Origin: a bacterium
GTDB lineage: Bacteria; ARS69
Reading direction: 5' to 3'
Assembly: GCA_025774805.1 (NCBI GenBank)
Contig: JALGZR010000006.1
Coordinates: 1 to 57,383, forward strand
DNA length: 57,383 nt
The notes beneath the pieces were generated by a model. It was not told where the DNA came from. It searched no databases and saw only the letters and a list, made by a program, of their open reading frames with translations. The position numbers and the translations under genes were made by a program. Numbering within the stretch: the stretch's first letter is position 1; the number at the start of each line of letters is the position of its first letter. Below, in pieces: positions 1 to 56,901 of this stretch.

Positions 1-1755
1 GGCGGGACGCAGGTGGGGGTGGTGAGCGTGATGCGCCCGACGCGGGAGTCGGGCTACGCCGAAGAGGACGTGCTCTTTCTGACGGCTCTGGGCTCGCTGA
101 TCGGCGGCCAGATCGGTCACGCCCGCGCCCGGACTCAGGGACGGGAGGCGATCCGCAAGACAATCGAGGCGCTGACGGTCGCCCTCGAGGCGCGCGATCC
201 TTACACCCGAGGGCACTCCCAACGGGTGGGAATGTACTGCCTCGCCATCGCGAACGAGCTCGAGGCCGCGGGCAAGCACACGTTCGGAAAGGACCAGCGC
301 AACTCCCTGCTCATGTCCGCGCTGCTGCACGACATCGGAAAGATCGGAATACGGGACGAGATCCTCTTCAAGCCGGCGAAGCTCAACCGCGAGGAGTACG
401 ACCTCATCAAGTCCCATCCACTGAAGGGAGCCGAGATCGTCCGGATGATTCCCGGTTTCGACGACGACGTGATCGCCGGAATCCTCGGTCACCACGAACG
501 GTACGATGGGCGCGGCTATCCGGCCGGAATCGTAGGCGAGAAGATCCACATCTTCGGTCGGATCATCGGCCTGGCGGACGCCTTCGACGCGATCGTCACG
601 AGCCGTCCGTACAGCAATGCGGGAACCTTCCAGTACGCCATGGAGCGGATCGAGGAGCTCGCGGGCATCGCCTTCGATCCGGAGATGGTGCGCGCCATGC
701 ACCGGGCACTGAAAGACCCCACCGTGTGGACGGAGCTGGGGGCGATCTCACGGGTCCGTCCGGAGTCGGCTTCGATGAAGGTCGAGGTGCAGGAGGCCGA
801 CCAGGCCGATCGGACCTTGCGCCGGATCTTCGGACGGAACGTCACCGACCTGCCGACCCTGCCGCACGTGGTCTCGCAGGTTCTCGAGAAGACGCGCAAC
901 TCCGACACGAACTTGAGCGAGATCGTCCAGCTGATCTCGACCGATCAGGGGCTGGTCTCCACGTACCTCCGTCTCGTCAACTCCGCCTTCTACGGATTCA
1001 GTCGTCGCATTACGACTCTCAAGCAGGCGATCACCCTCCTCGGCTTTCGGAGCGTTCGCAACGTCGTGGTCAACGCCGGGGTCGTGGGGATCTTCCGGAA
1101 GCGGACTTTCAACAACCGCTACCGCCACCGCCTCTGGGATCACTCGGTCACCTGCGCCCTCGCGGCCCGGTTCCTCTCGTCCGAGGTGGGCTACGGGGCG
1201 AAGGAGGAGGCCTTCACCGCGGGGCTCCTGCACGACATCGGGAAAGTCGTGATCGATCAGTACGCCCCGCGGGACTCGGCCACGGTCATGGAGCGGATCG
1301 AGGCCGGAAGCGAGGCCCGAGACGCGGAAGTCGAGATCCTCGGTGTCGATCACACCCGGATCGGGGCTTGGATCGCGGAACGTTGGCACCTCCCCAAGTC
1401 CCTCTGCTGGGTGATCGAGCACCACCACGAGTGGGACTCTTCCGACGTGCCCGGGGAGCAGGACCTCGTGAAGCTCGTGGCCGCCGCGAACGCGATCGCG
1501 AAGATCCGTCGCACGGACGACACCGAAGCACTTCATCAGGCGGTGGAGGAGTTCGCGGCCACTCCCGCGAACGTCTACGGCTTCGATCCCGGGGCGATCG
1601 TACGGCTCCTGGACCCCATCTGGGCCGGCAAGATCGAGGCGATGAAGACCTTCGGACACGGGCCGGTGATGGACCGGATCGAGACGAAGGACGAAGAGGC
1701 CGCCGCATCGGCCTCGTCCTCCACGACCGGCCCCGACGCATCGGCTACGGCCTAG
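1..1755 (+). CDS. HD-GYP plus HDOD signalling protein, 5' end cut by window
   Basis: The frame is open from base 1, so the N-terminus lies outside the window. The first 35 or so visible residues look like the end of a GAF sensor domain. An HD-GYP domain follows, with the metal-binding LLHDIGKIG and the diagnostic HHERYDGRGYP, so hydrolysis of cyclic di-GMP is likely. The second half is an HDOD domain that still keeps an LLHDIGK motif, which many HDOD domains have lost. The tail is rich in Ala and Ser. The TAG stop is also the first three bases of a palindromic repeat. Family assignment is firm; the input signal is unknown. Confidence 0.88.
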   Translation, partial: GGTQVGVVSVMRPTRESGYAEEDVLFLTALGSLIGGQIGHARARTQGREAIRKTIEALTVALEARDPYTRGHSQRVGMYCLAIANELEAAGKHTFGKDQRNSLLMSALLHDIGKIGIRDEILFKPAKLNREEYDLIKSHPLKGAEIVRMIPGFDDDVIAGILGHHERYDGRGYPAGIVGEKIHIFGRIIGLADAFDAIVTSRPYSNAGTFQYAMERIEELAGIAFDPEMVRAMHRALKDPTVWTELGAISRVRPESASMKVEVQEADQADRTLRRIFGRNVTDLPTLPHVVSQVLEKTRNSDTNLSEIVQLISTDQGLVSTYLRLVNSAFYGFSRRITTLKQAITLLGFRSVRNVVVNAGVVGIFRKRTFNNRYRHRLWDHSVTCALAARFLSSEVGYGAKEEAFTAGLLHDIGKVVIDQYAPRDSATVMERIEAGSEARDAEVEILGVDHTRIGAWIAERWHLPKSLCWVIEHHHEWDSSDVPGEQDLVKLVAAANAIAKIRRTDDTEALHQAVEEFAATPANVYGFDPGAIVRLLDPIWAGKIEAMKTFGHGPVMDRIETKDEEAAASASSSTTGPDASATA

Positions 1756-1935
1756 ATCCCGCATATCTCACCGGTCTCTGCTGCGGCAGCGGCGAAGCCG
1801 CGCCTGGCTTCGTCACTGCGGCGCTTCCGCCCTGCGACGGGGCTACGGCCCCGCCTCGGGCGAAAGCCCCCCATCTCCTCGCCAGCCACGACGATCCGCA
1901 GCCTCGCGACGAGCCCGGTGAGAAACGCGGCCTAG
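1753..1935 (+). repeat. Family A palindromic element, full length
   Basis: About 183 bp with near-perfect terminal inverted arms (CCCGCATATCTCACCGG against CCGGTGAGAAACGCGG), flanked on both sides by CCTAG. The interior has the GCGGC/GCCGC hairpin and the CCCTGCGAC-hairpin-CTCGGG core. Its first TAG is the stop codon of the HD-GYP gene. Confidence 0.9.
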
Positions 1936-1998
1936 CCTCGGGCAGCGCCCGCGTCCGCTCCGAACGCCCGGCCCGCGTCTGTGGTACCGTCCGGACCC

Positions 1999-6471: not shown

Positions 6472-7290
6472 TTGCACCTCGAATCCCAGCATCGTGCTCT
6501 CATCGCCGTTGCGGTCCTCGGCGCTGCCGCCGTCGCCTCCGGGGAACCGGGGCCCTCCCCTCTCGACCCCTCGCCTCCCGACGCATCCTCCCCCGCGCCC
6601 GCCCTCTGCCCACCCGCCGCGTGGGTGGAGGGGAACGTGGTCTCCCCCCCCTTCCTGACCTGGGGACCGGAGACGGAGAAGATCTTCCGGGAGGAGAACC
6701 GCCACAACGACTACTCGGCCGAGATCCACTACGATCTCGGTCTCTACTTCTTCGAGCAGGGAGAGCACGACCTCTCTCTCAGGCACTACCGTCAAGCCAT
6801 CGAAATCGATCCCGAGTTCGCCGAGGCGTACTTCGGCGTCGGTCTGATCTTTTACACGTTGGGTGACGACGAGAACGCGATCCGGTTCTATCTGAGCTCC
6901 CTCGAGTACGATCCCCGGGACGCGGACACCCGCAACAACCTGGGCCTCATCTACTACCGGCGGGGTGAGCTCGCCCTGGCCCGCGCCCAGATCGAAGAGG
7001 CGATCCGCCTCCAGCCCGACTTCACCGACGCCTTCTACAACCTGGGTCTCGTGTCCTACCGGCAGGACGAGCCGCACGTGGCCATCGCGCACTTCTTGAA
7101 GGCGCTCAACCACGATCCCACCTACCTTCGCGCCCGGTTCAATCTCGGGGTCGTCTACTTCGAGCTCGGCATGAACGATCAGGCCGAGGAGCAGTGGACC
7201 CTGATCGAGAAGCAGGCCCCGAACACCCCCCTCGCCATCCAGGCCCGGGAAAGCCTGACGATCCTCCGCGAGAAGAAGGGCTCAGACTAG
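6472..7290 (+). CDS. Secreted tetratricopeptide repeat protein
   Basis: The 272-residue product starts with a signal peptide (about residues 1-23, ending VASGEPG), then a proline-rich linker. At least five TPR units run from about residue 80 to the end, with typical motifs such as AEAYFGVGLIFYTLGD, ADTRNNLGLIYYRRGE and TDAFYNLGLVSYR. TTG 6472 is chosen because GGAGA lies about 7 bases upstream and the signal peptide begins right after it. TPR proteins scaffold complexes; no partner is evident. The stop codon TAG is the first three bases of a family A element. Confidence 0.82.
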   Translation: MHLESQHRALIAVAVLGAAAVASGEPGPSPLDPSPPDASSPAPALCPPAAWVEGNVVSPPFLTWGPETEKIFREENRHNDYSAEIHYDLGLYFFEQGEHDLSLRHYRQAIEIDPEFAEAYFGVGLIFYTLGDDENAIRFYLSSLEYDPRDADTRNNLGLIYYRRGELALARAQIEEAIRLQPDFTDAFYNLGLVSYRQDEPHVAIAHFLKALNHDPTYLRARFNLGVVYFELGMNDQAEEQWTLIEKQAPNTPLAIQARESLTILREKKGSD

Positions 7291-7468
7291 CCCGCATTTC
7301 TCACCAGGCTCGTCGCGAGGCTGCGGATAGTCGTGGCTGGCGAGGAGATGGGGTGCTTTCGCCCGAGGCGGGGCTGTAGCCCCGTCGCAGGGCGGAAGTG
7401 CCCCAGCGACGAAGCCAGACGCGGCTTCGCCGCTGCCGCGGCAGAAACTGGTGAGAAATGCGGGCTAG
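7288..7468 (-). repeat. Family A palindromic element, full length, reversed
   Basis: Perfect outer arms (TAGCCCGCATTTCTCACCAG and its complement), CTAG on both sides, and the core hairpin read on the minus strand. TAG at 7288-7290 is the stop codon of the TPR gene. This is the only full-length copy in reverse orientation. Confidence 0.92.
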
Positions 7469-7533
7469 CCTCGGTCTTGCCGGGGCGGGCGCGGTCGGCC
7501 ACACTCCCCATCTCGCTGTCACCGGAGAAGACC

Positions 7534-8292
7534 TTGGGCGTTACCCCGACGACGCTTCCCTTTCTCGTTCTGGCCGGCGGTCTCTCCGGTTTCGTCAACA
7601 CGGTCGCGGGAGGGGGCTCACTCTTCACGTTTCCCCTTCTCATTCTCCTGGGATTTCCTCCGCAGCTCGCGAACGGTACGAACCGGGTCTCGATACTGAT
7701 GCAGAATCTGGTCGCCGTGCCGACCTACGCGAAGCAGGGCTACTTCTTTCCGAAGCAGGCCCTCGCGCTCGGGGCGGCCGCGGTTCCGGCGGCGTTCCTC
7801 GGCGCGGCGACCGCGGCGCGACTCGATCCGGAGCCGTTCCGGAAGATCGCCGCCCTCCTTCTGCTCGCCGTGCTGACGACGCTCTTTCTCAAGCCGACCG
7901 CCTGGACGCGGGATCGTTCTCGGGACCGGATTCGGTGGAAGGGCGCGATTCCCTTGATGATCGCCGTGGGGTTTTACGGGGGATTCTTTCAGATCGGCAC
8001 GGGCATGCCGCTTCTGGCGGTGATCGTTCTGGTCGGCGGCTGGGACCTCGTCTCGGCGAACTCGCTGAAGGTCGAAGTGGTTCTTCTGTTCACGACCATG
8101 GCGGTCATCGTGTTCGCCCTGCACGATCAGATCGACTGGCCCGCGGGCGCCGCGCTCGGCGTTGGGAACATGGCGGGCGCGTGGATCGGCGCCCATTCGG
8201 CCGTGAAGCGCGGCCCGGGCTGGATCCGTTGGGTGCTCATCACCATGGCCACTCTCGCCGCCCTCAAGATGGTGTTCGGCGGAGGGGTCTAG
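7534..8292 (+). CDS. TauE/SafE-family sulfite/anion exporter
   Basis: The 252-residue product is a polytopic membrane protein with the family signature GFVNTVAGGGSLFTFPLL and a second internal repeat containing FYGGFFQIGTGMPLL. Members export sulfite, sulfoacetate or related anions. TTG 7534 is chosen because GGAGAAG lies just upstream and the first membrane helix follows at once; the longer frame from 7333 runs through the repeat. The TAG stop forms the start of a truncated family A element. Confidence 0.85.
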   Translation: MGVTPTTLPFLVLAGGLSGFVNTVAGGGSLFTFPLLILLGFPPQLANGTNRVSILMQNLVAVPTYAKQGYFFPKQALALGAAAVPAAFLGAATAARLDPEPFRKIAALLLLAVLTTLFLKPTAWTRDRSRDRIRWKGAIPLMIAVGFYGGFFQIGTGMPLLAVIVLVGGWDLVSANSLKVEVVLLFTTMAVIVFALHDQIDWPAGAALGVGNMAGAWIGAHSAVKRGPGWIRWVLITMATLAALKMVFGGGV

Positions 8293-8360
8293 CCTGCATA
8301 TCTCACCAGCCTCTGCCGTGGCCGCGAAGGCGAAGGAGGCAGGGAAGCGCCGGTGATGTC
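8290..8360 (+). repeat. Family A element, truncated left end
   Basis: The left arm TAGCCTGCATATCTCACCAG and the CTCTGC that follows match family A; the remainder is decayed and there is no right arm. TAG is the stop codon of the TauE-like gene. Confidence 0.7.
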
Positions 8361-9229: not shown

Positions 9230-9406
9230 CGGGCTGCATCTCTCACCGGCCTCCGCCGCGGCGGAGGCCGGTCCCGCCCGGCTTCGTCGTCTTGGCCTTC
9301 CGCACACCCGAGGGGTGAAGGCCCCGGTTCGGACGCAAGCATCCCATCTCCTCGCCGGACACGGCTTTCCACCGCCTCGCGACGAGACTGGCGAGAAGCG
9401 CGGGCC
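9230..9406 (+). repeat. Family A element, divergent full-length copy
   Basis: The arms GGGCTGCATCTCTCACCGG and TGGCGAGAAGCGCGGGCC are recognisable. The inner hairpin has been replaced by a different stem (GGCCTTC/GAAGGCC) that can still pair. It is not next to a stop codon. Confidence 0.7.
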
Positions 9407-9454
9407 AGGATCGAGTCCGTTCACCTCGGGGGGGTCCGGCTCGCGGGGCGGCTG

Positions 9455-11172: not shown

Positions 11173-11595
11173 ATGAGTGCCTGGACGCTGTTGGCCATCG
11201 CGGCCGTGACGATCACTCTGTCGATCACTGCCGGCTGCGCCTCCGACTCCGAAAACGCCGGAGACCGCGCGGCCGAGACGACCCGCACCGCCGAATCCAC
11301 GCCGCCCCCCGCGGCGACACCTTCCCCCGAGACGGTCGCCGAGGCGGCCTCGGCCCCCGCCGAGGGCGAGATCACGCTCGTCGGGAACCTCGGGTGCGGG
11401 CACTGCAACTACGAGAAGGGAACTGCGTGCGCCGCCGCGATCCAGACGGAGGACGGAACCGTCTACCTTCTCGACGTCGACTCGAGCTCCGAGCTGTTCA
11501 CGAAGCGCTTCGGCGGCGCCGAGGTGAAGGTCGTCGGGGTCGTGAGCGAGAAGGACGGCGAGCGCCACGTGGCGGTCACGAGCTTCGAGATCTAG
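11173..11595 (+). CDS. Small lipoprotein with a CGHC motif
   Basis: The 140-residue product has a lipoprotein signal with lipobox ITAGC (Cys about residue 22) and a Thr/Pro/Ala-rich linker. A globular end follows: GNLGCGHCNYEKGTACAAAIQTEDG. The CxxC plus a third Cys suggests metal or thiol chemistry; similar small domains occur in envelope proteins of uncertain role. Start ATG follows GAGGGAGAAG. The TAG stop is the first three bases of a short family A element. No partner gene is evident. Confidence 0.72.
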   Translation: MSAWTLLAIAAVTITLSITAGCASDSENAGDRAAETTRTAESTPPPAATPSPETVAEAASAPAEGEITLVGNLGCGHCNYEKGTACAAAIQTEDGTVYLLDVDSSSELFTKRFGGAEVKVVGVVSEKDGERHVAVTSFEI

Positions 11596-11661
11596 CCCGC
11601 TGTCTCACCAGGCTCCGCTGCGGCAGCGGCGAAGCCGCGCCTGGTGAGGAACACGGGCTTA
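11593..11661 (+). repeat. Family A element, short 69-bp form
   Basis: Both outer arms and the GCGGC/GCCGC hairpin are present, but the whole central stem is missing. It looks like an internal-deletion derivative. TAG at 11593-11595 is the stop codon of the lipoprotein gene. Confidence 0.85.
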
Positions 11662-11667
11662 CGAAGA

Positions 11668-12573: not shown

Positions 12574-12878
12574 GACATCACCTTTCGCTGGCCGGCCGAC
12601 GATCGTCCTCGGACGACCCGTGCCGCACCGTTGCGGTCTCGCGTGGTCCTCGCGCCCCCCGATCTCTCCCCAACCTACCGCGAACGACCGGTAGGCGTGC
12701 CCCTTTCGCCCCACGATCGTCTCCGCCGCCGCGCCGAGTCGTCCGTCCGCGGCGCCCCGGGGGTCCCGGCCCGCGAACGGACGCCCGATTGACCCTCTCC
12801 CCCCCCGGTGCTACCTTCCTCGCTTCCTTCGCGGACGTTCGGCCGACCGGAGATCCCGCCATCGACGCCACCAGCCCT
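12574..12878. other. Gene-free stretch before a repeat
   Basis: About 300 bases between the radical SAM gene and a family A element. Short frames here lack ribosome sites. The radical SAM promoter must lie in this stretch, but no clear boxes stand out. Confidence 0.4.
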
Positions 12879-13058
12879 GGCCCGCATTTCTCACCAGTCT
12901 CTGCTGCGGCAGCGGCAAAGCCGCGCCTGGCTTCGTCGTTGCGGAGCTTCCGCCCTGCGACGGGGCTACGGCCCCGCCTCGGGCGAAATCCCCGCATCTT
13001 CTCGCCAGTCACGACGATCCGCAGCCTCGCGACGAGCCTGGTGAGAAATGCGGGCTAG
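12879..13058 (+). repeat. Family A palindromic element, best-preserved copy
   Basis: Proposed pairing: outer stem 12881-12896 with 13039-13054; hairpin 12912-12916 with 12920-12924; inner stem CTGGC 12927-12931 with GCCAG 13004-13008; CGCCC 12951-12955 with GGGCG 12981-12985; apical CGGGGC 12961-12966 with GCCCCG 12971-12976 around TACG. The conserved 3' strip TCCGCAGCCTCGCGACGAGC is at 13018-13037. Its right end contains the VanZ start codon. Confidence 0.92.
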
Positions 13059-13458
13059 GGATCGGCCCCGGGGGCGGGCCCTGCCGGGCTGGGCGCCTCC
13101 GTTGCTGTGGGCGACCGTGATCCTGGGTGCCTCGTCCATCCCGGATCTGAAGACGCATCCCGAAGGGATTCCGATCCGGGACAAGCTCGCCCACTTCGGC
13201 GAGTATTTCGTCTTCGGGTGGCTCGTGGCGCGGGCGTACCGGCCCTTCGGATGGGAGCCGGGGCGGCACCTGGTGTGGACCCTTCTCTTCGGGGTCTTCA
13301 TGGGGTGTGTCGACGAGTTCTATCAGGGATTCGTGCCCGGCCGGCAGCAGGACGCTTTCGATTTGATCGCGAACACGCTGGGCGTGGCCGCGGGGTGGTA
13401 CTTCTTCCGGGAGGATCGGGCGGTTGGCGAAGCTCACGGCCCTCAGGGGAACCCGTGA
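13048..13458 (+). CDS. VanZ-like membrane protein
   Basis: The 136-residue product has VanZ-family features: a first helix PPLLWATVILGASSIPDL, the RDKLAHFGEYFVFGWL segment, and CVDEFYQGFVPGRQQDAFDLIANTLGV. Relatives affect glycopeptide tolerance or envelope biology. The only start that keeps the first helix intact is ATG 13048, inside the right arm of the family A element, where GGTGAG five bases upstream could serve as ribosome site. It overlaps hisS by 35 bases, implying one operon. Confidence 0.8.
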   Translation: MRARDRPRGRALPGWAPPLLWATVILGASSIPDLKTHPEGIPIRDKLAHFGEYFVFGWLVARAYRPFGWEPGRHLVWTLLFGVFMGCVDEFYQGFVPGRQQDAFDLIANTLGVAAGWYFFREDRAVGEAHGPQGNP

Positions 13459-16518: not shown

Positions 16519-16578
16519 GAACGCGAACGGAGCGCGACGTCGAGACGGTCCAGGCCCGACGCTCCCGCCTCGGATCCG

Positions 16579-16596
16579 GGTGAGAAATGCAGGCTA
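16579..16596. repeat. Family A element, one arm only
   Basis: GGTGAGAAATGCAGGCTA is the outer arm; no other part of the element is visible. Read on the minus strand, its TAG is the stop codon of the adjacent secreted-protein gene. Confidence 0.7.
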
Positions 16597-17445
16597 AGGC
16601 TCGATCTCGGAGTTCCCGATTCTCCCGGTCCAGACCGCGGTGGGGGGTACCGTCGGCTCCGAGACGGTTCCGATCGTGTCGGCGAAGTACATGATCGTGA
16701 GCTGGGCGTTGAAGACCCTCCACTCGCCGAGCTGCTCGTGCCCCACCAGGTAGAACGTCATTGTGCCCGGGGAGACGCTCAGGGTCCGGGTCTGGTGGGA
16801 ATTCGATTCGAAGTAGTTGTCGGACGATCCCTTGTTCTCGAAACACTGAAAGGACTGCTCCGACCAGGAGACCCCCGAGATGTCGTTGATGCTGATGCCA
16901 TAGCAGTTCAGGGTGCCCACCGGAACAGTGGCACCCATGGACGCGGTTCCGCTCAGAACGATCGTCCCGCTGGCCGGGATGCTGACGGTTCGGAGGACGA
17001 GATTCTCGACTCCGTCCGCGTTGAGATCGATTGCCCGGGAGGCCGAAGCCACGCCCGACGGCGTCCCTCCGGCCCGGTACGCGTACGCCGAGCTGCCCAT
17101 GGGGAGTCGGGGATCGAGCGGAGAGCCCTCGACCTGGATGGCGAGATAGCGGATGGATCCGTCAAAGACGACGGACGAGAGAGGGACCGGCGGATCCCCG
17201 GCCCCCAGAAGCACCGACGCGATGCCCTGGTCGGGCAGGACGCGGTGATTCTCGGGACCCCACAGAGAGGTTCCTCCGCTCTCCGAGTCGAAGATCTCGA
17301 AGGTCATCAGGGCCGAGTCGGCGACCGCAGCGCCGGTGGAGTCGGTGAGGTTGACCTGAAACGGCATTACATTCGGCGCTTGGGCGGCGGCCCCGCCGAC
17401 CGGAGCCAGCGAGAGGAGAACGGAGATCGCGGTTGCGGTTCGCAT
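16594..17445 (-). CDS. Secreted protein, paralogue of the S74 protein next to it
   Basis: The 283-residue product has a signal peptide (MRTATAISVLLSLAPVGGAAAQ) and an N-terminal domain of about 115 residues almost identical to that of the next minus-strand gene (VMPFQVNLTDSTG, SLWGPENH, GIASVLLGAG, PLDPRLPMGSSAYAYRA). The remainder is a different beta-rich domain with no recognised family. It lacks the S74 end of its neighbour. The two genes look like a tandem duplication whose C-terminal halves were swapped or diverged. The TAG stop lies in a repeat arm. Confidence 0.75.
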   Translation of the reverse strand: MRTATAISVLLSLAPVGGAAAQAPNVMPFQVNLTDSTGAAVADSALMTFEIFDSESGGTSLWGPENHRVLPDQGIASVLLGAGDPPVPLSSVVFDGSIRYLAIQVEGSPLDPRLPMGSSAYAYRAGGTPSGVASASRAIDLNADGVENLVLRTVSIPASGTIVLSGTASMGATVPVGTLNCYGISINDISGVSWSEQSFQCFENKGSSDNYFESNSHQTRTLSVSPGTMTFYLVGHEQLGEWRVFNAQLTIMYFADTIGTVSEPTVPPTAVWTGRIGNSEIEP

Positions 17446-17611: not shown

Positions 17612-17652
17612 CGTCGCTGCCGCAGCAGAGCCTGGTGAGAAATGCAGGCTAG
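17612..17652 (-). repeat. Family A element, left arm and part of hairpin only
   Basis: CGCTGCCGCAGCAGAG followed by the complete arm CTGGTGAGAAATGCAGGCTAG is the left end of the element on the minus strand. CTA at 17649-17651 is the complement of the stop codon TAG of the S74 protein gene. Confidence 0.75.
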
Positions 17653-18752
17653 CGTGTGCTGCGAGTCAGATCCCCCTCCAGCCGGCGGACGCGCTCCGCC
17701 AGCCGCTCGTTCTGCTCCCTCAGCTGAATGACCTCGTTGAGAATCAGGGGCACCAGCTGATCGTAGGAGACCGTGTCGACCCGGCCCTCCTCGTCGTAGC
17801 CCACGAGCTCGGGCATGCTCTCTTCGACCTCCTCGGCGATCAGGCCGAACCGGTTCTTGGCGGTTTCGTCTCCCTTGTAGTCGAAGACCACGGGCCGAAG
17901 GCCGTAGATCCGCTCGGAGTACTCGTCGAGTGGGCGGACGTTCTCCTTGTAGCGCAGACTCGAAGTGAGATATCCCAACTCACCCGCCGACGTGATGTAG
18001 AGGTCTCGCGTGGTGCCGGAGATGCCGTTGCCGTAAACGGTCCGGAAGTACACGGGATCGCAGTACAGGTTCATGATCCCGCTCGTGTGGATCTGGAGAT
18101 AGTCGTTCGAGCCATAGGTGATCATGTACCAGAATCCGGAATCGCTGAAGTTCAGACCGGCCTCCCACGTGTTCGCTCCGCTTCGGAACTCGTGATAGGC
18201 GCGTGAACTCACCTGAGTCGAAACGTGATGGGTGGCATCGCCCTGAACCTGGAGCTTGGCGCCGGGGGACGATGTTCCGATGCCCACGTTGCCCGTGGAG
18301 CGATAGACGTTGGAGCCGCTGATCGTCCAATCGGCGAACGCGCTCGCGTGCTGCCCGTCGAGCCGGTCGGCGTTCGAGGCTGAATATGCGTATGCCGAGC
18401 TGCCGATCGGCAGCCGGGGATCGAGCGGCGTCCCCTCGACCGTGACGGCGAGGTAGCGGATGGACCCATCGAAGATCCCCGGACTGAGCGGGATTGCCGG
18501 ATTCCCGGCTCCCAGAAGCACCGACGCGATGCCGTTGTCGGGAAGGACGGCGTGATTCTCAGGACCCCAGAGGGAGAGCCCCCCGGTCTCCAGATCGTAG
18601 ATCTCGAAGACCAGGGCCACCGAGTCCGTCACCGGGGCGCCGGTGGAATCGGTGAGGTTGATCTGAAACGGCATCACGTCCGGTGCCTGGGCGAAGGCCC
18701 CGGCGACCAGAGTCACCGAGAGGAGAGTCGAGATCGCGGTCGCGGTTCTCAT
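17649..18752 (-). CDS. Secreted protein with C-terminal S74 intramolecular chaperone
   Basis: The 367-residue product has a signal peptide, the same N-terminal domain as its paralogue, then a tail-spike-like section (GNVGIGTSSPGAKLQVQGDA). A Peptidase_S74 domain occupies about the last 110 residues: SSLRYKENVRPLDEYSERIYGL, FGLIAEEVEESMPELV and VSYDQLVPLILNEVIQL, ending in a coiled coil. In phage tail spikes this domain drives trimerisation and cuts itself off using a Ser-Lys pair; the S and K of SSLRYK fit. No phage genes are nearby, so this is a cellular surface protein. Confidence 0.82.
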   Translation of the reverse strand: MRTATAISTLLSVTLVAGAFAQAPDVMPFQINLTDSTGAPVTDSVALVFEIYDLETGGLSLWGPENHAVLPDNGIASVLLGAGNPAIPLSPGIFDGSIRYLAVTVEGTPLDPRLPIGSSAYAYSASNADRLDGQHASAFADWTISGSNVYRSTGNVGIGTSSPGAKLQVQGDATHHVSTQVSSRAYHEFRSGANTWEAGLNFSDSGFWYMITYGSNDYLQIHTSGIMNLYCDPVYFRTVYGNGISGTTRDLYITSAGELGYLTSSLRYKENVRPLDEYSERIYGLRPVVFDYKGDETAKNRFGLIAEEVEESMPELVGYDEEGRVDTVSYDQLVPLILNEVIQLREQNERLAERVRRLEGDLTRSTR

Positions 18753-32917: not shown

Positions 32918-33925
32918 TTGAGCGAGCAGTCCACCCGACGCATTGAGTTGGGAGAGGTCTCTCCCGTCAGCGTGTTCGGGCAGAACGACGCAAACCTGCG
33001 CATTATCCGCGATCTCTTCGGCTCCCGCATCGTCGCCCGCGGCACGGAGATCCTGCTCGAAGGACCTCCCGGAGAAATCGAGGATCTCGCGGAGATCTTC
33101 GAACGCCTCCTCTCGGTCGCCGGTCAAGGCCGGTACGTGAGTCCCTCCGATGTCCGGTATGCCGTCCGGATGGTTCGAGAGGAGAACGGTCAGGCGCTCG
33201 AGACTCTGAACGGCGACAACGAGCTCCGACCCTTCCACGGTCTCCGCAAGAACGTCGTCCCGCGCACCGTGAAGCAGGCCGAGTACGTTCGCGCCATCGA
33301 ATCCCGGGACATCATCTTCGCGATCGGTCCGGCCGGCACGGGGAAGACGTACCTCGCCATGGCGGCCGCCCTCTCCGCATTGAACCGGCGGGAGATCGAG
33401 CGGATTCACCTCGTCCGGCCGGCGGTGGAGGCGGGAGAGAGCCTCGGCTTCCTGCCCGGCGACTTCACGGAGAAGGTCGGGCCCTACCTGCGCCCGCTCT
33501 ACGACGCCCTCCACGACTTGATGCCCCTCGATCGGGTTCAGAAATACCTCGACAACGGCACGATCGAGGTGGCGCCGTTGGCCTACATGCGCGGACGGAC
33601 GCTCAACCGATCGATCGTCATTCTGGACGAGGCGCAGAACACGACGCTCCTCCAGATGAAGATGCTCCTCACCCGACTCGGCAACGACGCGAAGGCGATC
33701 GTGACCGGAGACGACACGCAGATCGACCTCGAGCGCACCGAGGAGTCGGCGCTGCTCAAGATCGGCTACGTGCTGAGGAGCATCGAGGGCATCCACTTCG
33801 TACGATTCGGGGACGAGGACGTCGTCCGCCACCATCTGGTGCAGGAGATCATTCAGGCGTTCGACGAGTTCGACGGTCGGCGCGACCGGAAGAAAAAGAC
33901 CCCCTCTAGCCCGGACTACCCATGA
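32918..33925 (+). CDS. phoH: PhoH-like ATPase
   Basis: The 335-residue product has an N-terminal KH-like region and the PhoH ATPase core: Walker A GPAGTGKT, RPAVEAGESLGFLPGDFTEKVGPYLRPLYDAL, and Walker B IVILDEAQNTT. It pairs with ybeY just downstream, as in many bacteria, and is linked to RNA metabolism. TTG 32918 is the start, with AAGGAG upstream; the nearby ATG is out of frame. The last residues (SSPDYP) and the TGA stop are encoded by the left arm of a family B element, so the C-terminus has been altered by the insertion. Confidence 0.92.
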   Translation: MSEQSTRRIELGEVSPVSVFGQNDANLRIIRDLFGSRIVARGTEILLEGPPGEIEDLAEIFERLLSVAGQGRYVSPSDVRYAVRMVREENGQALETLNGDNELRPFHGLRKNVVPRTVKQAEYVRAIESRDIIFAIGPAGTGKTYLAMAAALSALNRREIERIHLVRPAVEAGESLGFLPGDFTEKVGPYLRPLYDALHDLMPLDRVQKYLDNGTIEVAPLAYMRGRTLNRSIVILDEAQNTTLLQMKMLLTRLGNDAKAIVTGDDTQIDLERTEESALLKIGYVLRSIEGIHFVRFGDEDVVRHHLVQEIIQAFDEFDGRRDRKKKTPSSPDYP

Positions 33926-34089
33926 AGAATCTCCTGCGATCGCGTATACGCGCCACCGGACGGGCGTCCTCGGGGTCCGTACCCTGCGACGTATCGTCGA
34001 GATACGACTCGGGTCCGGACCCCTGCGGGTGCTCGTCCGGTGGGCGTCTCCGCAATCTCGCGACGATCTTCATGGGTAGTCCGGGCTAG
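33907..34089 (+). repeat. Family B palindromic element, copy 1
   Basis: The 183-bp element has 22-base perfect arms, beginning TAGCCCGGACTACCCATGAA, and CTAG at both ends. The interior contains the hairpin CGCGTATACGCG, the stem CACCGGACG/CGTCCGGTG, and CCCTGCGAC-GTATC-hairpin-GATAC-then CTCGGG. It sits between phoH and ybeY and provides the end of phoH. Confidence 0.92.
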
Positions 34090-34185
34090 CGTACCGGGAG
34101 GTGAGAGACCATAGGCGAGTCACCGACTCGACCGTCCGGGGACGAACCGGGCCCCCAACACGGCATCGCCATCCGCGGCCTGAGG

Positions 34186-34599
34186 GTGAGCTACGGAGTG
34201 GACCGGGTCCGACTTCGTGACCTCCTGCGAAAGACGCTGGCGGCCGAGCGCGCCCCCGCGGGGGAGCTCGCGGTCGCATTCGTCGGAAATCGAGTCATGC
34301 GTCGGATCAACCGCGACTTCCGCGGAATCGACGCGCCCACCGACGTGCTCTCCTTCTCTTACGTGGACGAGCCGCACTCCGGAGGCGTCCTCGGGGAGAT
34401 CTACGTGGCGCCCGGGGTGGCGCGGAGGCAGGCGGAGGAAGCTCGATGCTCTCTCGCCGAGGAGCTCGCGCGGCTCGCCCTCCACGGAACCCTGCACGTG
34501 CTCGGATACCGTCACGACCACCCGCGGGACCGCCGCCGCATGCTCGATCGCCAGCGTCGGTACCTCGACCGCTTCTTCCGGAACGGGACGCCGTGCTGA
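34186..34599 (+). CDS. ybeY: YbeY endoribonuclease
   Basis: The 137-residue product has the YbeY metal-binding motif HGTLHVLGYRHDHP (three zinc-binding His) and the NRDFRGIDAPTDVLSFSY segment. It matures 16S rRNA and takes part in ribosome quality control. Start GTG 34186 lacks a strong ribosome site, so an upstream rare start is possible. It overlaps the CorC-like gene by 7 bases. Confidence 0.9.
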   Translation: MSYGVDRVRLRDLLRKTLAAERAPAGELAVAFVGNRVMRRINRDFRGIDAPTDVLSFSYVDEPHSGGVLGEIYVAPGVARRQAEEARCSLAEELARLALHGTLHVLGYRHDHPRDRRRMLDRQRRYLDRFFRNGTPC

Positions 34600-35855
34600 C
34601 CCCCGGGTTCACCCTCGCGTTCGCGGCGCTGGGCGTCGCCTTCTTCGGGGTCCTGCTCGCGGTGGTCTCGGCGTCGGAGCAGGTGTTCCTCTCGCTCACC
34701 GAGGCCCAGCTCCGTCGGATCAAGGAGCGCGGCAACGGACGCGTGGAGCGGATTCTCGAATACGTGCGCACGCCGCACCAGGTCATCGTGACCACGACCC
34801 TCTCGAGCGGAGTGTTCGCGGCCGGGGCGATTCTCTGCTTCCTGCTGGTGGTTTCCCGCGCCGAGCCGGTGACGCCCGGCCAGGTCGTCGGTCCCGGGCT
34901 GATCGCGGGACTCCTCCTCGCGGTCCTGGGGCGATCGATTCCGCGGGCGATGGTCACCGCCCGGCCCGAGATCGCCGCCTTCCATCTCGTGAGGATCTAC
35001 GCCGTCGTGGACACGGTCTTCAAGCCGCTCGTGTGGTCGGTGCGCCGCCTTCAGCTCCGCCTCTCCGACGAGGCGGAGGAGGATCTGGTGGCCGCCGAGG
35101 AGTTCAAGGCGGTGGCCGAGGAGGACGACGAGGCGCCACGTCTCGAGGACGAGAAGCGGGAGCTCCTCCACTCGATCTTCGAGTTCGGGGTGACGACGGC
35201 CCGCGAGGTCATGGTCCCCCGGATCGACATGATCATGGCCGACGCCTCCACCACCCGGGAGGACGTGCTCAAGCTCATCGCCGAGCACGGGCACTCGCGC
35301 ATACCGATCTACGACGAGTCGGTCGACAAGATCGTCGGAGCGGTGCACGTCAAGGAGATCGTGCGGGACGGGTCCGTGCACGGCGACGACACGCCGGTCC
35401 GGGACTACGTGCGACCGGTCATGTTCGTACCGGAGACCAAGAAGATCGATGAGATGCTCCGCGAGTTCCAGGAGCAAAAGACGCACCTGGCGATCGTCGT
35501 CGACGAGTACGGCGGCACGTCGGGCATGGTGACCCTGGAGGACGTGCTGGAAGAGATCGTCGGCGAGATCGAAGACGAGTACGATACGGAGGAGACGCTT
35601 CTCGAGCCTCTGGCCGACGGCTCCTACCGGGTGGCGGCGAAGATCGACATCGACGATCTCAACGAGGAGATCAACCTCAACCTGCCCACGGAAAACAGCG
35701 ACACTCTCGGGGGCTTCATCTACGAGCTGGTGGGCAAGGTGCCGACGCCGGGGGAGGCGGTCACCTACCAGGGGCTACGTTTCATCATCGATCGCGTCCA
35801 CCGACAGCGTATCATCCGCGTGCGGATCCTGAAGGAAGAGGTCGGAGCCCCTTAG
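34593..35855 (+). CDS. CorC/HlyC-family membrane protein with CBS domains
   Basis: The 420-residue product has a DUF21-type membrane half (about residues 1-150), two CBS domains ([19 protein letters not shown] to [19 protein letters not shown]), and a C-terminal CorC_HlyC domain ([18 protein letters not shown]). Such proteins act in magnesium or cobalt export and often sit next to ybeY and phoH. GTG 34593 overlaps the ybeY stop. The TAG stop is the first three bases of a family B element. Confidence 0.9.
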
Positions 35856-36035
35856 CCCGGATCATTCATGAGGGATCTGCTACGATCGCCGATACGCTCC
35901 CCCGGACGGGCGTCTTCGGGGTCCGTACCCTGCGACGTATCATTAAGATACGCCTCGGGTCCGAACCCCTGTGGGAGCCCGACCGGGGGGCGTCTCCGCG
36001 ATCTCGCGACGATCTTCATGAACGATCCGGGCTAG
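35853..36035 (+). repeat. Family B palindromic element, copy 2
   Basis: 183 bp, beginning TAGCCCGGATCATTCATGA; the right arm is its complement with two mismatches. Four positions differ from copy 1 on both arms in a compensating way. The core is CCCTGCGAC-GTATC-ATTAA-GATAC-then CTCGGG. TAG at 35853-35855 is the stop codon of the CorC-like gene. Confidence 0.92.
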
Positions 36036-42148: not shown

Positions 42149-42331
42149 CAGCCCGCGTTTCTCACCAGTCTCTGCTGCGGCAGCGGCAAAGCCGCACCTG
42201 GCTTCGTCGTTGCGGCTCTTCCGCTCTGCGACGGGGCTACGGCCCCGCCTCGAGCGAAAGCACCCCATCTCCTCGCCAGACACGACTATCCGCTGCCTCG
42301 CGACGAGACTGGCGAGAAACGCGGGCTGGCC
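42149..42331 (+). repeat. Family A palindromic element, full length
   Basis: The arms read GCCCGCGTTTCTCACCAG and CTGGCGAGAAACGCGGGC. The change from GCAT to GCGT on the left is matched by ACGC on the right, a clear compensating pair. The core is complete. It lies in intergenic DNA. Confidence 0.92.
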
Positions 42332-42860
42332 TCAGGCTCGGTCTTCGTCTTCTGCGGAGGGAATCAGTCCCGGCGCTCCGGTGTGTCGCGGTCGGGCGCG
42401 TCCCGGCCGGGCGCATCGCCGTCGGGCGGCGGCGGCGCGGGACTCGGGCGTCCTCCGGGATCGTCGGGTGGAGGTTCATCGGCTCCACCCCCACCCCCGC
42501 CCATCGCTCCGAGCACGGCGTGAAGGAGTTTGCGGCTGAAGACCTGCAGCTGGTCCAGGGGGGAGGCTCCTTCCTCTCTGTCGAGGGGATCCGCGGCGGA
42601 CTTGGCAGTCGCACCCGTCGAGGGCGGACGATCGCGGTCGGGACAGCTCTCTTTCTATCGAACGAACCGCCGCGCCGGAGAGTTCCGCTCCGAGGGACGA
42701 GCCGCCCTTTTCCAGGGTAAAAACTCGCGGGGGTGGCTCTCCTCGGGGACGGGGATTACCATGAAGGAGGACTCCCGCCCCCTCCCGAGACGGATCATGT
42801 TCCACGGGCGCTCACGGTCTCGACCGTCGCACGACCTTCCGCTCCGTTTTTCCCGGGGTC
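42332..42860. other. Unresolved stretch between two family A copies
   Basis: No confident gene. The minus strand has protein-like stretches in two frames (one around 42640-42720, one around 42365-42640 with an amphipathic helix and a Pro/Asp-rich tail) but no start codon. This could be a decayed gene. A GTG-started frame at 42520 on the plus strand looks like a double-glycine leader but has no ribosome site. Confidence 0.3.
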
Positions 42861-43039
42861 TAGCCTGCATGTCTCACCACGCTCTGCTGCGGCTGCGGCA
42901 AGCCGCGCCTGGCTTCGTCGTTGGGGCGCTTCCGCCCTGCGACGGGGCTACGGCCCCGCCTCGGGCGAACGCCCCCCATCTCCTCGCCAGACACGCCTAT
43001 CCGCAGCCTCGCGACGAGCCTGGTGAGAAATGCAGGCTT
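42861..43039 (+). repeat. Family A palindromic element, full length, at a gene start
   Basis: The arms CCTGCATGTCTCACC and GGTGAGAAATGCAGG show a compensating C-to-T/G-to-A pair relative to other copies. The core is complete. The element runs directly into the signal peptide of the gene that follows, and the right flank is CTTG rather than CTAG. Confidence 0.92.
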
Positions 43040-44020
43040 GCGATCTGCCTGCTGGGAGTCCCGCTCCTCCTCGCCGGCCCCCTGCCCGCGCCCGCCGGTC
43101 CGGACGACCCCCTCCGCGGGGAGGTCGTCGCTCGCCTCGCGGTCACCGCGACGCCGGACCGTACGGGGACCCTCCGCGTGCCGAGCCCGTTCGCGGTTCT
43201 CCCCGGAGGGGAGCGGGTCGCGATCTACGTCCCGGAGTCGAACGGTATCTTCCTGATGGAGGGGGAGCGCATCCTCCACCATCTGCCCGTCTCCCCCACG
43301 ATGGAGAGCGTTCACGACCTCGCCGCCTCCGAATCGCTGCTCGTCGCGGGCAGCCGCCCCTCGGACGGCCGCAACACGGCCCGGCTCGAGGTGTTCGACG
43401 TCGCGACGGGTAAGCGGCTGGTTCCGGTGGTCACGGGCAACCCCCATCTACGTGTGGCGAAACGCGACGCGCACCTCTGGCGCGTCGTGGTCCGGGGAAG
43501 CCGCGTCGGCGTGTATCAGCCGGCGCTCGGCGCGACCGTTCCGCTCTGGGATCGCGCGGCGGGCTTCGTGACGAGCGAAGAGCAGATCCGTCGAATGCGG
43601 GCGGGAGTCAGTCTGGATCGCGCCCCCGCGTGGGTGCCGACCTCGGACGGCAGGATCTCCTACAAGGAGAGAGGCCACACGAGAGAGGTGGCGGGAGCGG
43701 AGGCCGGCCTCTTCCTGGACGGTTTCCCGAACGGGGACCTCCTTCTTCTCGAACCGACCGACGTGGCGGACCTTCCCGGCGAGGAGGGCATCCTGCTACC
43801 CCCCGTGCTGCGGCTGCGCCACTGGCACGGCGAGACCGCGATCACCGAGCTTCGCCTGTCGGCCCTGGACCCGCGCGTCCATGCAGAGCGGCTCATCGTG
43901 CACGGACGACCGGTCCGCGAGCGGGACGGGCGGATCTACTGGATCGCCGTGGGTCACGACTACCTCGAGATCCGATCTCTTCGATTGAGCGAATCCCGGC
44001 TCGACGGCTCCGCGCCGTGA
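42869..44020 (+). CDS. Secreted protein of unknown function; native start apparently lost
   Basis: The clearly protein-like part starts at about 43034 with a signal peptide (LAICLLGVPLLLAGPLPAPAGPDDP), then about 310 residues with a beta-propeller feel (FAVLPGGERVAIYVPESNGIFLMEG, LEVFDVATGKRLVPVV). No family is recognised. No ATG, GTG or TTG lies in frame between the repeat and the signal peptide. The given start is the first in-frame ATG, inside the repeat; the repeat's own ATG (43030) is one base out of frame. The gene overlaps recO by 4 bases. Confidence 0.6.
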   Translation: MSHHALLRLRQAAPGFVVGALPPCDGATAPPRANAPHLLARHAYPQPRDEPGEKCRLAICLLGVPLLLAGPLPAPAGPDDPLRGEVVARLAVTATPDRTGTLRVPSPFAVLPGGERVAIYVPESNGIFLMEGERILHHLPVSPTMESVHDLAASESLLVAGSRPSDGRNTARLEVFDVATGKRLVPVVTGNPHLRVAKRDAHLWRVVVRGSRVGVYQPALGATVPLWDRAAGFVTSEEQIRRMRAGVSLDRAPAWVPTSDGRISYKERGHTREVAGAEAGLFLDGFPNGDLLLLEPTDVADLPGEEGILLPPVLRLRHWHGETAITELRLSALDPRVHAERLIVHGRPVRERDGRIYWIAVGHDYLEIRSLRLSESRLDGSAP

Positions 44021-45281: not shown

Positions 45282-45427
45282 TCCTGTCCACTGGCAAGTC
45301 GTTGATTCGAAGCAAGTTCGAGGTCCTTGGGGATTGACGGGCCTCGTTTCCTCGTCATGGGATCTCCCGGGTAGCCGCCCTACGGAAACACAATCTGCGA
45401 AGTACAGCCGAACAGCGCTGTCATCTC

Positions 45428-45606
45428 TAGCCAGCATATCTCACCAGCCTCTGCTGCGGCCGCGGCTCGCCGCGCCCGGCTTCGTCGCTGGGGCACTTCC
45501 GCCCTGCGACGGGGCTACGGCCCCGCCTCGGGCGAAAGCACCCCATCTCCTCGCCAGCCACGACTATCCGCAGCCTCGCGACGAGCCTGGCGAGAAATGC
45601 GGGCTG
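45428..45606 (+). repeat. Family A palindromic element, full length
   Basis: The arms read CTAGCCAGCATATCTCACCAG and CTGGCGAGAAATGCGGGCTGG, more decayed than in other copies. The hairpin loop is TC and the core is intact. It sits downstream of the recO operon. Confidence 0.9.
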
Positions 45607-45779
45607 GATCCTCGGGGCTTCCCTTCCCAGAGCCGAGAGAGTGCGTTCCCCGCGGCTCACCCAAATGCCGTCGGTCGAGGTCAGGGCTTCCACAGGGCTT
45701 CGACACTTGGAGCCGCCGGAAGAGCACGGTCACGCGGAGAGACATCCCTCGTCCCGGAACGCGCGCACCTCGACGCCGC
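45607..45779. other. Gene-free stretch
   Basis: About 170 bases between the family A element and the MNT remnant. I see no gene, RNA or repeat. Confidence 0.4.
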
Positions 45780-46484: not shown

Positions 46485-46568
46485 GCGGTCCCTCCTTGCT
46501 CCGCGCCGAGGATAAGACCCCGGGACACCCGTGTCACGAGGGACCTCAGGAGTAGGACGGGAGTGGGC

Positions 46569-46931
46569 ATTCGCTTCCTCAGCCTGAAGTGGTGTGGCGG
46601 GATCGAGCTCGCGGGGGAAGCCGTTTGCAGTAGTAGAGGTGTGAACTGAGATCATCCACGGAGGATGATCCACGGAGGATGAAGTCATGGTCGATCCGGG
46701 GGAGTTCGCCGCTCGTGAATGAGGAGTTACGGTGATCGTCGATCGGAGGTTGCGCACAGGCGCCGGGGAAGAGACACCGAGCGCAAGACGGACGGACTGC
46801 GGCGAGGCCGGGAGAACGTGAGGCGTTCAGTCAGCCGTTCGAGAAGCTGTCGGGGTCGGGCGGAGCCCTCTCGGCCCAGGGTCCGGCTCGCGGATCGATC
46901 CCCTTCGCTCGGACGCTTCGCAGGGTGGAAG
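46569..46931 (+). repeat. Long direct repeat, copy 1
   Basis: The copy begins ATTCGCTTCCTCAG and ends near CAGGGTGGAAG; it is strongly similar over about 350 bases to 50915-51262. It has an extra tandem ATCCACGGAGGATG unit. No intact transposase frame is visible. It lies 85 bases upstream of the HEPN start. Confidence 0.85.
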
Positions 46932-50904: not shown

Positions 50905-50914
50905 AGGAGTAAAA

Positions 50915-51262
50915 ATTCGCTTTCTCAGCGTGAAGTGGTGTGGCGGGATCGAGCTTGTGGGGAAAGTCGTTTCCAGTAGTAGAGGTGTGACCTGAGATCA
51001 TCCACGGAGGATGAAGTGATGGTCGATCCGGGGGAGTTTGCCGCTCGTGAATGAGGAGTTGCGGTGATGGTCGATCCGAGGTTACGCACAGGCGCCGGGG
51101 CAGAGACACTGAGCGCAAGTGGAGGGACTGCGGCGAGGCCGGGAGAACGTGAGGAGTTCAGTCAACCACTCGAGGGGCTTTCGAGGTCGGGCGGAGCCCT
51201 CTCGGCCCAGGGTCCGGCTCGCGGATCGATCCCCTTCGCTCGGATTCTTCGCAGGGCGGAAG
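50915..51262 (+). repeat. Long direct repeat, copy 2
   Basis: About 348 bases, strongly similar and in the same orientation to 46569-46931. It directly abuts the truncated molybdenum-subunit gene, which suggests that its arrival, or recombination between the copies, removed the gene's 5' end. Confidence 0.85.
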
Positions 51263-51450: not shown

Positions 51451-51606
51451 GGTCACGGTGGCCGTCGCCGCGCCCGGCTTCGTCGCCGCGGCACTCCCGC
51501 CCTGCAACGGGACTGCGGCCCCGCCTCGGGCGAACGCACCCCAGCCCCTCGCCGGACACGACGATCCGCAGTTTCGCGACGAGCCCGGCGAGAAATGCAG
51601 CCTAAG
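51451..51606 (+). repeat. Family A element lacking its left arm
   Basis: Begins at CCGCGCCCGGCTTCGTC and runs through the core (CCCTGCAAC, CTCGGG) to the right arm CCCGGCGAGAAATGCAGCCTAA. Read on the minus strand, the terminal TAG is the stop codon of the porin gene. Confidence 0.85.
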
Positions 51607-56748: not shown

Positions 56749-56901
56749 CCGGCAGCGGCAAGGCCGCGCCTGGCTTCGTCGTTGCGGCGCTTCCGCCCTG
56801 CGACGGGGCTACAGCCCCGCCTCGGGCGAAAGCACTCCATCTCCTCGCCAGACACGACTATCCACAGCCCCGCGACGAGCCTGGTGAGAAATGCAGGGCG
56901 G
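56749..56901 (+). repeat. Family A element lacking most of its left arm
   Basis: It retains GCCGGCAGCGGCAAGGCCGC, the core (CCCTGCGAC, GGGGCTACAGCCCC, CTCGGG), the 3' strip and right arm CTGGTGAGAAATGCAGGG. The first 20 or so bases are missing. It lies between the nap operon and the phosphodiesterase. Confidence 0.88.

Follow-up and report, generated by a model that had tools for sequence, protein, structure and literature searches.

The 57,383-nucleotide stretch analysed here (contig JALGZR010000006.1 of assembly GCA_025774805.1, from a bacterium of the lineage ARS69; hereafter the window) contains two families of palindromic repeats, A and B, which are probably sibling families of a non-autonomous miniature inverted-repeat transposable element (MITE) that depends on an IS1380 transposase acting in trans and holds a core selected as a folded strand. 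The ends, the occurrence at CTAG sites and the dispersal of the element are established from its copies. Two copies of family B lie in the window, both 184 bp long, in the same orientation and 84% identical; B1 is flanked by phoH and ybeY, and B2 by a CorC/HlyC-type gene and a DUF502 gene, with the left TAG of B2 (35853-35855) serving as the stop codon of the CorC/HlyC-type gene. The two copies and their parts are as follows.

33906 to 34089, minus strand (the best-folding strand): B1, full-length element.
33906 to 33929, no strand assigned: B1, left arm of outer stem S1 (CTAGCCCGGACTACCCATGAAGAA), terminal inverted repeat.
33930 to 34066, minus strand: B1, conserved 137-nt core (nhmmer and alignment).
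33990 to 34006, minus strand: B1, apical helix S4 with its loop (CGTATC GTCGA GATACG).
34055 to 34066, minus strand: B1, part of loop T (TCTCGCGACGA on the plus strand), near-invariant across phyla.
34067 to 34089, no strand assigned: B1, right arm of outer stem S1, terminal inverted repeat with CTAG at its end.
35852 to 36035, minus strand (the best-folding strand): B2, full-length element.
35876 to 36012, minus strand: B2, conserved 137-nt core (nhmmer).

The original prediction regarded A and B as structural homologues with a common core and 3' strip and different stems, and this view is borne out. The sequence blocks on which it drew are present (CCCTGCGAC, CTCGGG and a 3' strip reading TCCGC.ATCTCGCGACGAT in B and TCCGCAGCCTCGCGACGAG in A), as are the apical hairpins GTATC/GATAC in B and GGGGC/GCCCC in A, and homology extends beyond these strips over the full length of the core, which is 136 nt in A and 137 nt in B. 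The predicted boundaries, giving a length of about 183 bp and a start at TAGCCCG, fell one base short on each side, the element running from CTAG to CTAG. Similarly, the four matched changes reported between the arms of the two B copies are real double changes in the terminal arms that preserve pairing, but B2 also carries one unmatched change in its right arm and a few further unpaired positions relative to B1.

All copies fold as one long hairpin in which three conserved unpaired internal loops are separated by freely varying helices. On the minus strand the order is S1, loop T, S2, loop M, S3, apical loop and hairpin S4, and essentially the same diagram is obtained for every family. Loop T reads UC[GUC]GC[GA]GG / CC[GCA]GC[A]GA, loop M reads GGC[AA]G[GA] / [GA]C[GCA]GCC and the apical loop reads CC[GGA]GGCG / CGUC[GA]GG; all are purine-rich with G and A bases facing one another, and the outer and apical loops show the same [GNA]/[GA] motif toward both ends of the core, which would suggest a repeated binding motif. 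When helices were anchored on the conserved loops in 23 representatives (one per family, except that all copies from genomes G002 and G074, whose stems differ, were taken), 79% of the pairs were standard and 176 double changes were counted, compared with 72±7 in 1000 shuffles, none of which exceeded 98, and with 34-58 when the registers were slid. The prediction is upheld in that changes in the stems are compensated and the unpaired blocks are held constant. The covariation signal is clear for S1, S2 and S4, with compensated variation between families in the apical helix S4, and family B alone has 14 pairs with double changes. Anchored counts were used because the variable helices misalign in a full cross-phylum MAFFT alignment, from which RNAalifold recovers only 12 pairs. 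The inclusion of more copies neither removed the covariation nor exposed the common blocks as chance matches, either of which had been named as fatal to the idea: across 38 copies drawn from many phyla, CGACG...CGCCTC, CTCGCGACGA and similar blocks hardly vary.

The strand on which the fold was originally read is the less stable of the two. The opposite strand folds better in 18 of 18 families with both RNA and DNA parameters (p = 7.6e-6), and one G·U pair in the apical helix persists in 21 of 22 cases. Isolated stem mismatches on the strand first read include 50 A·C and 23 G·T, the former being G·T on the other strand; this excess is suggestive as evidence of strand, given that many of the mismatches are common by descent. 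Replication-strand bias was considered for a single-contig 3.2-Mb deltaproteobacterial chromosome (G069), where the GC skew was too noisy for placement of the origin. Since the helices vary freely with compensation and the loops do not, the target of selection appears to be a folded single strand, either RNA or single-stranded DNA. The original suggestion of a functional RNA or single-stranded DNA fold keeps its conserved loops and covarying stems, and any function stays putative.

The ends of family A (CTAGCCYGCATWTCTCAC) match annotated IS1380-family ends at 18 of 18 bases in two plasmid copies; the annotated elements, on Pseudomonas putida and Stutzerimonas plasmids, have CTAGCCCGCATTTCTCAC at both ends, and IS1380-family copies from Bradyrhizobium and Rhizobium have near-identical ends. 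The terminal repeats of family B (CTAGCCCGGACTATTCATGAA) only resemble the IS1380 end class (compare L207). In two element-bearing genomes the end that follows the IS1380 gene and the ends of the local element belong to one class (L205, L207). CTAG stands on both sides of the elements and, being a palindrome, could belong to the element end. Of about 52 copies inspected, at least 6 lie directly against another element with a single CTAG or CTGG common to both, which is what duplication of a CTAG target would give. The window has 21 occurrences of the tetranucleotide where 66 would be expected, a threefold depletion, and roughly half of the 21 are at element ends. Because CTAG is scarce and contains TAG, many element boundaries coincide exactly with a stop codon, whichever side of the element is considered and whichever way it is oriented; by orientation, such boundaries number 18 and 17 in A, 14 and 11 in B and 10 and 8 in other families, the level at random positions being 9-13%.

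The window's own genome, a 5.1-Mb draft, contains at least 129 copies of the A or B kind according to a covariance model, with scoring limited to 137. Family B has about 20 full-length and further partial copies; for A a first look gave 340 candidates, and all 40 of the 40 that were scored matched. The A end motif occurs at 391 places with up to 3 mismatches, as against 1 place for a reversed control. The dispersal indicated by these numbers is far beyond chance, and the flanks are unrelated between copies. Family A has six full-length copies in the window itself, together with several partial ones.

1752 to 1938, minus strand: A copy, full length.
7284 to 7471, plus strand: A copy, full length, in the opposite orientation to the other A copies.
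9234 to 9410, minus strand: A-like copy, diverged.
11590 to 11665, no strand assigned: deleted A copy, with only the outer stem and part of the 5' end of the core.
12877 to 13061, minus strand: A copy, full length.
42149 to 42328, minus strand: A copy, full length.
42858 to 43044, minus strand: A copy, full length.
45424 to 45609, minus strand: A copy, full length.
51465 to 51605, minus strand: A copy lacking the left end.
56750 to 56897, minus strand: A copy lacking the left end.

Many single A-type ends with neither partner nor core also occur beside ordinary genes, both in the window (8287-8327, 16553-16598 and 17613-17653) and elsewhere (L325, L327, L330, L333, L336 and L339); these either are remnants or serve as ends for something else. 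A further form is a stem-only hairpin with A-type ends (L104:15092-15146, L111:13178-13230 and L119:906-970), in which almost perfectly matched arms enclose a loop of 3-15 nt resembling CTCGTCGCGAG; these hairpins are likely to be snap-back deletion products.

Relatives were sought with a single pattern scan covering about 85,000 species genomes, which returned 85 stretches, and were accepted as true when the 5' motif TCTGCTGCG stood at the right distance, the core was 133-147 nt long and the outer stem was paired; most other stretches were chance-like matches with no stem. A further 17 genomes, which represent at least seven named higher taxa, have homologues with the same 133-147-nt core at 1-136 copies each, the records being from Acidobacteria, Eisenbacteria, Deltaproteobacteria, Desulfobacteraceae, Myxococcaceae, Nitrospirae, Planctomycetota and Actinomycetes. 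Counts in these hosts, made with a model built on 38 sequences, include 41 copies in G069 and, for example, 52, 66, 72, 73 and 136 in others. Four other genomes belong to the window's own family, and of these only G002 has the element, with 68% identity over its length; since three of the five genomes in this family are without it, the distribution is patchy. A search of plasmids, phages and viral contigs found no element, and eight viral pattern matches look like chance. Some variant forms were also seen. In G069 a subfamily (L301-L303) has an extra small GC-rich hairpin of the CCCGCGGTACCGCGGGA type on one side of the core, and in G002 several partial core fragments, with an unusually G-rich stem, follow a full copy in tandem (L068). 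Shorter relatives in G070 (L281-L283) and G073 (L271-L274) have just the middle and apical loops and sit inside other terminal repeats (GGCTGTTGAAAAAG...CTTTTTGAACATCC and CTAGCCCGAATATTTCACAAG), which suggests a wider superfamily.

The core is not tied to a single type of end, because the same core is found with IS1380-type ends, with CTAGAGCRCC, with TTAGGGTGTG and with stems specific to individual copies. In a Myxococcaceae genome the ends are CTAGAGCRCCGAACAGGTTACC; in G074 they are TTAGGGTGTGTACCG together with further stems that differ among its five copies; and in G002 every inspected copy has a different 20-25-bp stem, such that cores are 80% identical and stem arms 56% (random, 45%). 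In A, B and the family from G060, by comparison, core and stems are about equally conserved. What appears to be new is this recurrence of one core with quite different ends.

Collectively these results are best accommodated by a model in which an IS1380-family transposase acting in trans would recognise the terminal repeats, and insertion at CTAG would leave one CTAG on each side. The core of about 136 nt would have been kept across many phyla while the ends were exchanged, and would be bound as a folded strand by a putative protein, either as single-stranded DNA or a cruciform during replication or transposition, or as RNA, with at most a slight lean toward the former. A bolder version, on which we are evenly divided, is that the core is a self-standing and widespread class of folded RNA or single-stranded DNA that travels between phyla in miniature transposons and swaps its outer stems to suit the transposase at hand, the mirrored [GNA]/[GA] loops and the tandem-GA middle loop binding a protein that helps the element to prosper.

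Several findings weigh against the proposal of an IS1380-dependent MITE with a selected core. No intact IS1380 gene is present in the window's genome, where contig 17 has a degraded PF13701 (IS1380) fragment without matching ends; the helper may have been lost or may lie in a gap of the assembly. An IS1380 match is likewise lacking in 12 of 16 other genomes that bear the element, including the single-contig chromosome with 41 copies, and the IS1380 partners with matching ends are in other hosts. Inspection of 20 unpaired A-type ends in the window's genome revealed no autonomous copy, and in G069 the inspected end pairs and unpaired ends lie beside ordinary genes. The stems of G002 and G074 are copy-specific and not IS1380-like, and no empty site was found in a sister strain. 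With respect to the fold, S3 shows no excess of double changes in the register used, and the shuffle control leaves relatedness in place, for which reason the slid control was also relied upon. We therefore describe the element as moved like an IS1380 MITE and do not claim a working partner in the window's genome. One candidate for an autonomous copy, a 2.2-kb pair of A-type ends on contig 104 (L324:189-2421), was rejected because it encloses an XRE regulator and a 5'-nucleotidase and no transposase. Its right part, together with flank past the end, recurs at 96% identity on a second contig (L328). This end pair could represent capture of host genes or chance neighbours.

The first alternative is that these are ordinary IS1380 MITEs with a functionless interior, in which template switching (quasi-palindrome correction) keeps the arms paired and the common core reflects descent and horizontal spread. 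The resemblance of stem-only hairpins with perfectly matched arms to snap-back products, the absence of orientation bias and the patchy distribution are all in keeping with this. However, template switching would remove asymmetric internal loops, and so fails to explain why the loops are the most conserved feature across phyla; moreover the loops outlast the stems in G002 and G074, and the wobble pairs are strand-asymmetric. We consider this account unlikely. It is less probable again that the element, recruited at gene ends, acts in cis as an RNA that terminates or stabilises messages at their 3' end. A stop codon does start many copies, and in G002 all seven of the copies with a readable left side follow a gene in the plus direction, but G002 is an exception: orientation bias toward flanking genes is lacking in A, B and most relatives, which disfavours such a role, the message in G002 would hold the plus strand and not the better-folding one, and the stop codons are accounted for by targeting of CTAG.

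We also doubt strongly that the core is itself mobile and inserts into the loops of existing hairpins or MITEs, the stems then being those of the target. Such behaviour would fit the several unrelated ends, the copy-specific stems of G002 and G074 and the presence of stem-only A hairpins in the window's genome, but the 400 kb sampled from G002 has few long hairpins that lack a core, the stem-only hairpins look like products of deletion or snap-back whose small loop is the core's own CTCGTCGCGAG, and stem and core diverge together in expanded families. Insertion of the core into native terminators of G002 was rejected for the same scarcity of long bare hairpins. Finally, a repetitive extragenic palindromic (REP) or REPIN-type element moved by a RAYT (REP-associated tyrosine transposase, of the Y1 type), a link the original prediction had raised, is highly improbable despite the high copy number, the palindromic and extragenic character, the TAG at the ends and the description of GTAG-tagged repeats of this general kind (PMC3733652), because the window's genome has no match to Y1_Tnp (PF01797), REPs are 20-40 bp long as against 184 bp here, and the ends match a DDE transposon family instead.

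Comparison with known systems places the element close to, and yet apart from, several of them. Family A shares its terminal repeat with IS1380-family insertion sequences (PF13701, DDE_Tnp_1_4) and their derived MITEs, and insertion sequence-derived MITEs are, like the elements described here, short, non-coding, palindromic and present in many copies with a short flanking repeat (here CTAG). The interior, however, is no remnant of the transposase gene; it is conserved across phyla with a common fold and is also found between ends unlike those of IS1380. IS1380 goes unmentioned in a 2024 review of prokaryotic MITEs (PMC10969869). GTAG- and CGTC-tagged REPs and REPINs are likewise extragenic palindromic repeats, found downstream of genes and hypothesised to be RNA elements or miniature transposons (PMC3733652); they carry a tetranucleotide tag, whereas the present element is one hairpin with long terminal repeats and CTAG ends. 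The 'class 4' multicopy sequences of Geobacter metallireducens, built on CCYTC and with similar sequences in many genomes, are possibly an earlier sighting of a relative, judged from the main-text description, which gives no fold, mobility or end type (PMC2700814). Covarying helices and conserved loops occur together across distant hosts, as in the structured RNAs of Rfam; no family in Rfam 15 matches above its gathering threshold. A literature search by sequence words, with most subscription journals outside its reach, returned nothing relevant.

Two further repeats in the window were noted: a segment of about 360 bp in two copies 4.3 kb apart (46560-46931 and 50906-51262; 89-93% identical), and a 300-bp direct repeat within or between genes (17078-17377 and 18385-18684; 78% identical).

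MITEs are usually regarded as passengers and are defined by their ends only. The elements described here point to a class of folded mobile elements that has not been described before and in which the core would have some role. That the interior is conserved more strictly than the ends, across phyla and across types of end, implies that the interior has a role and the ends are exchangeable. This would make it possible to test how non-autonomous elements persist and move from one helper to another, and it adds an unlisted family of structured RNA or single-stranded DNA that reaches 130 or more copies per genome.
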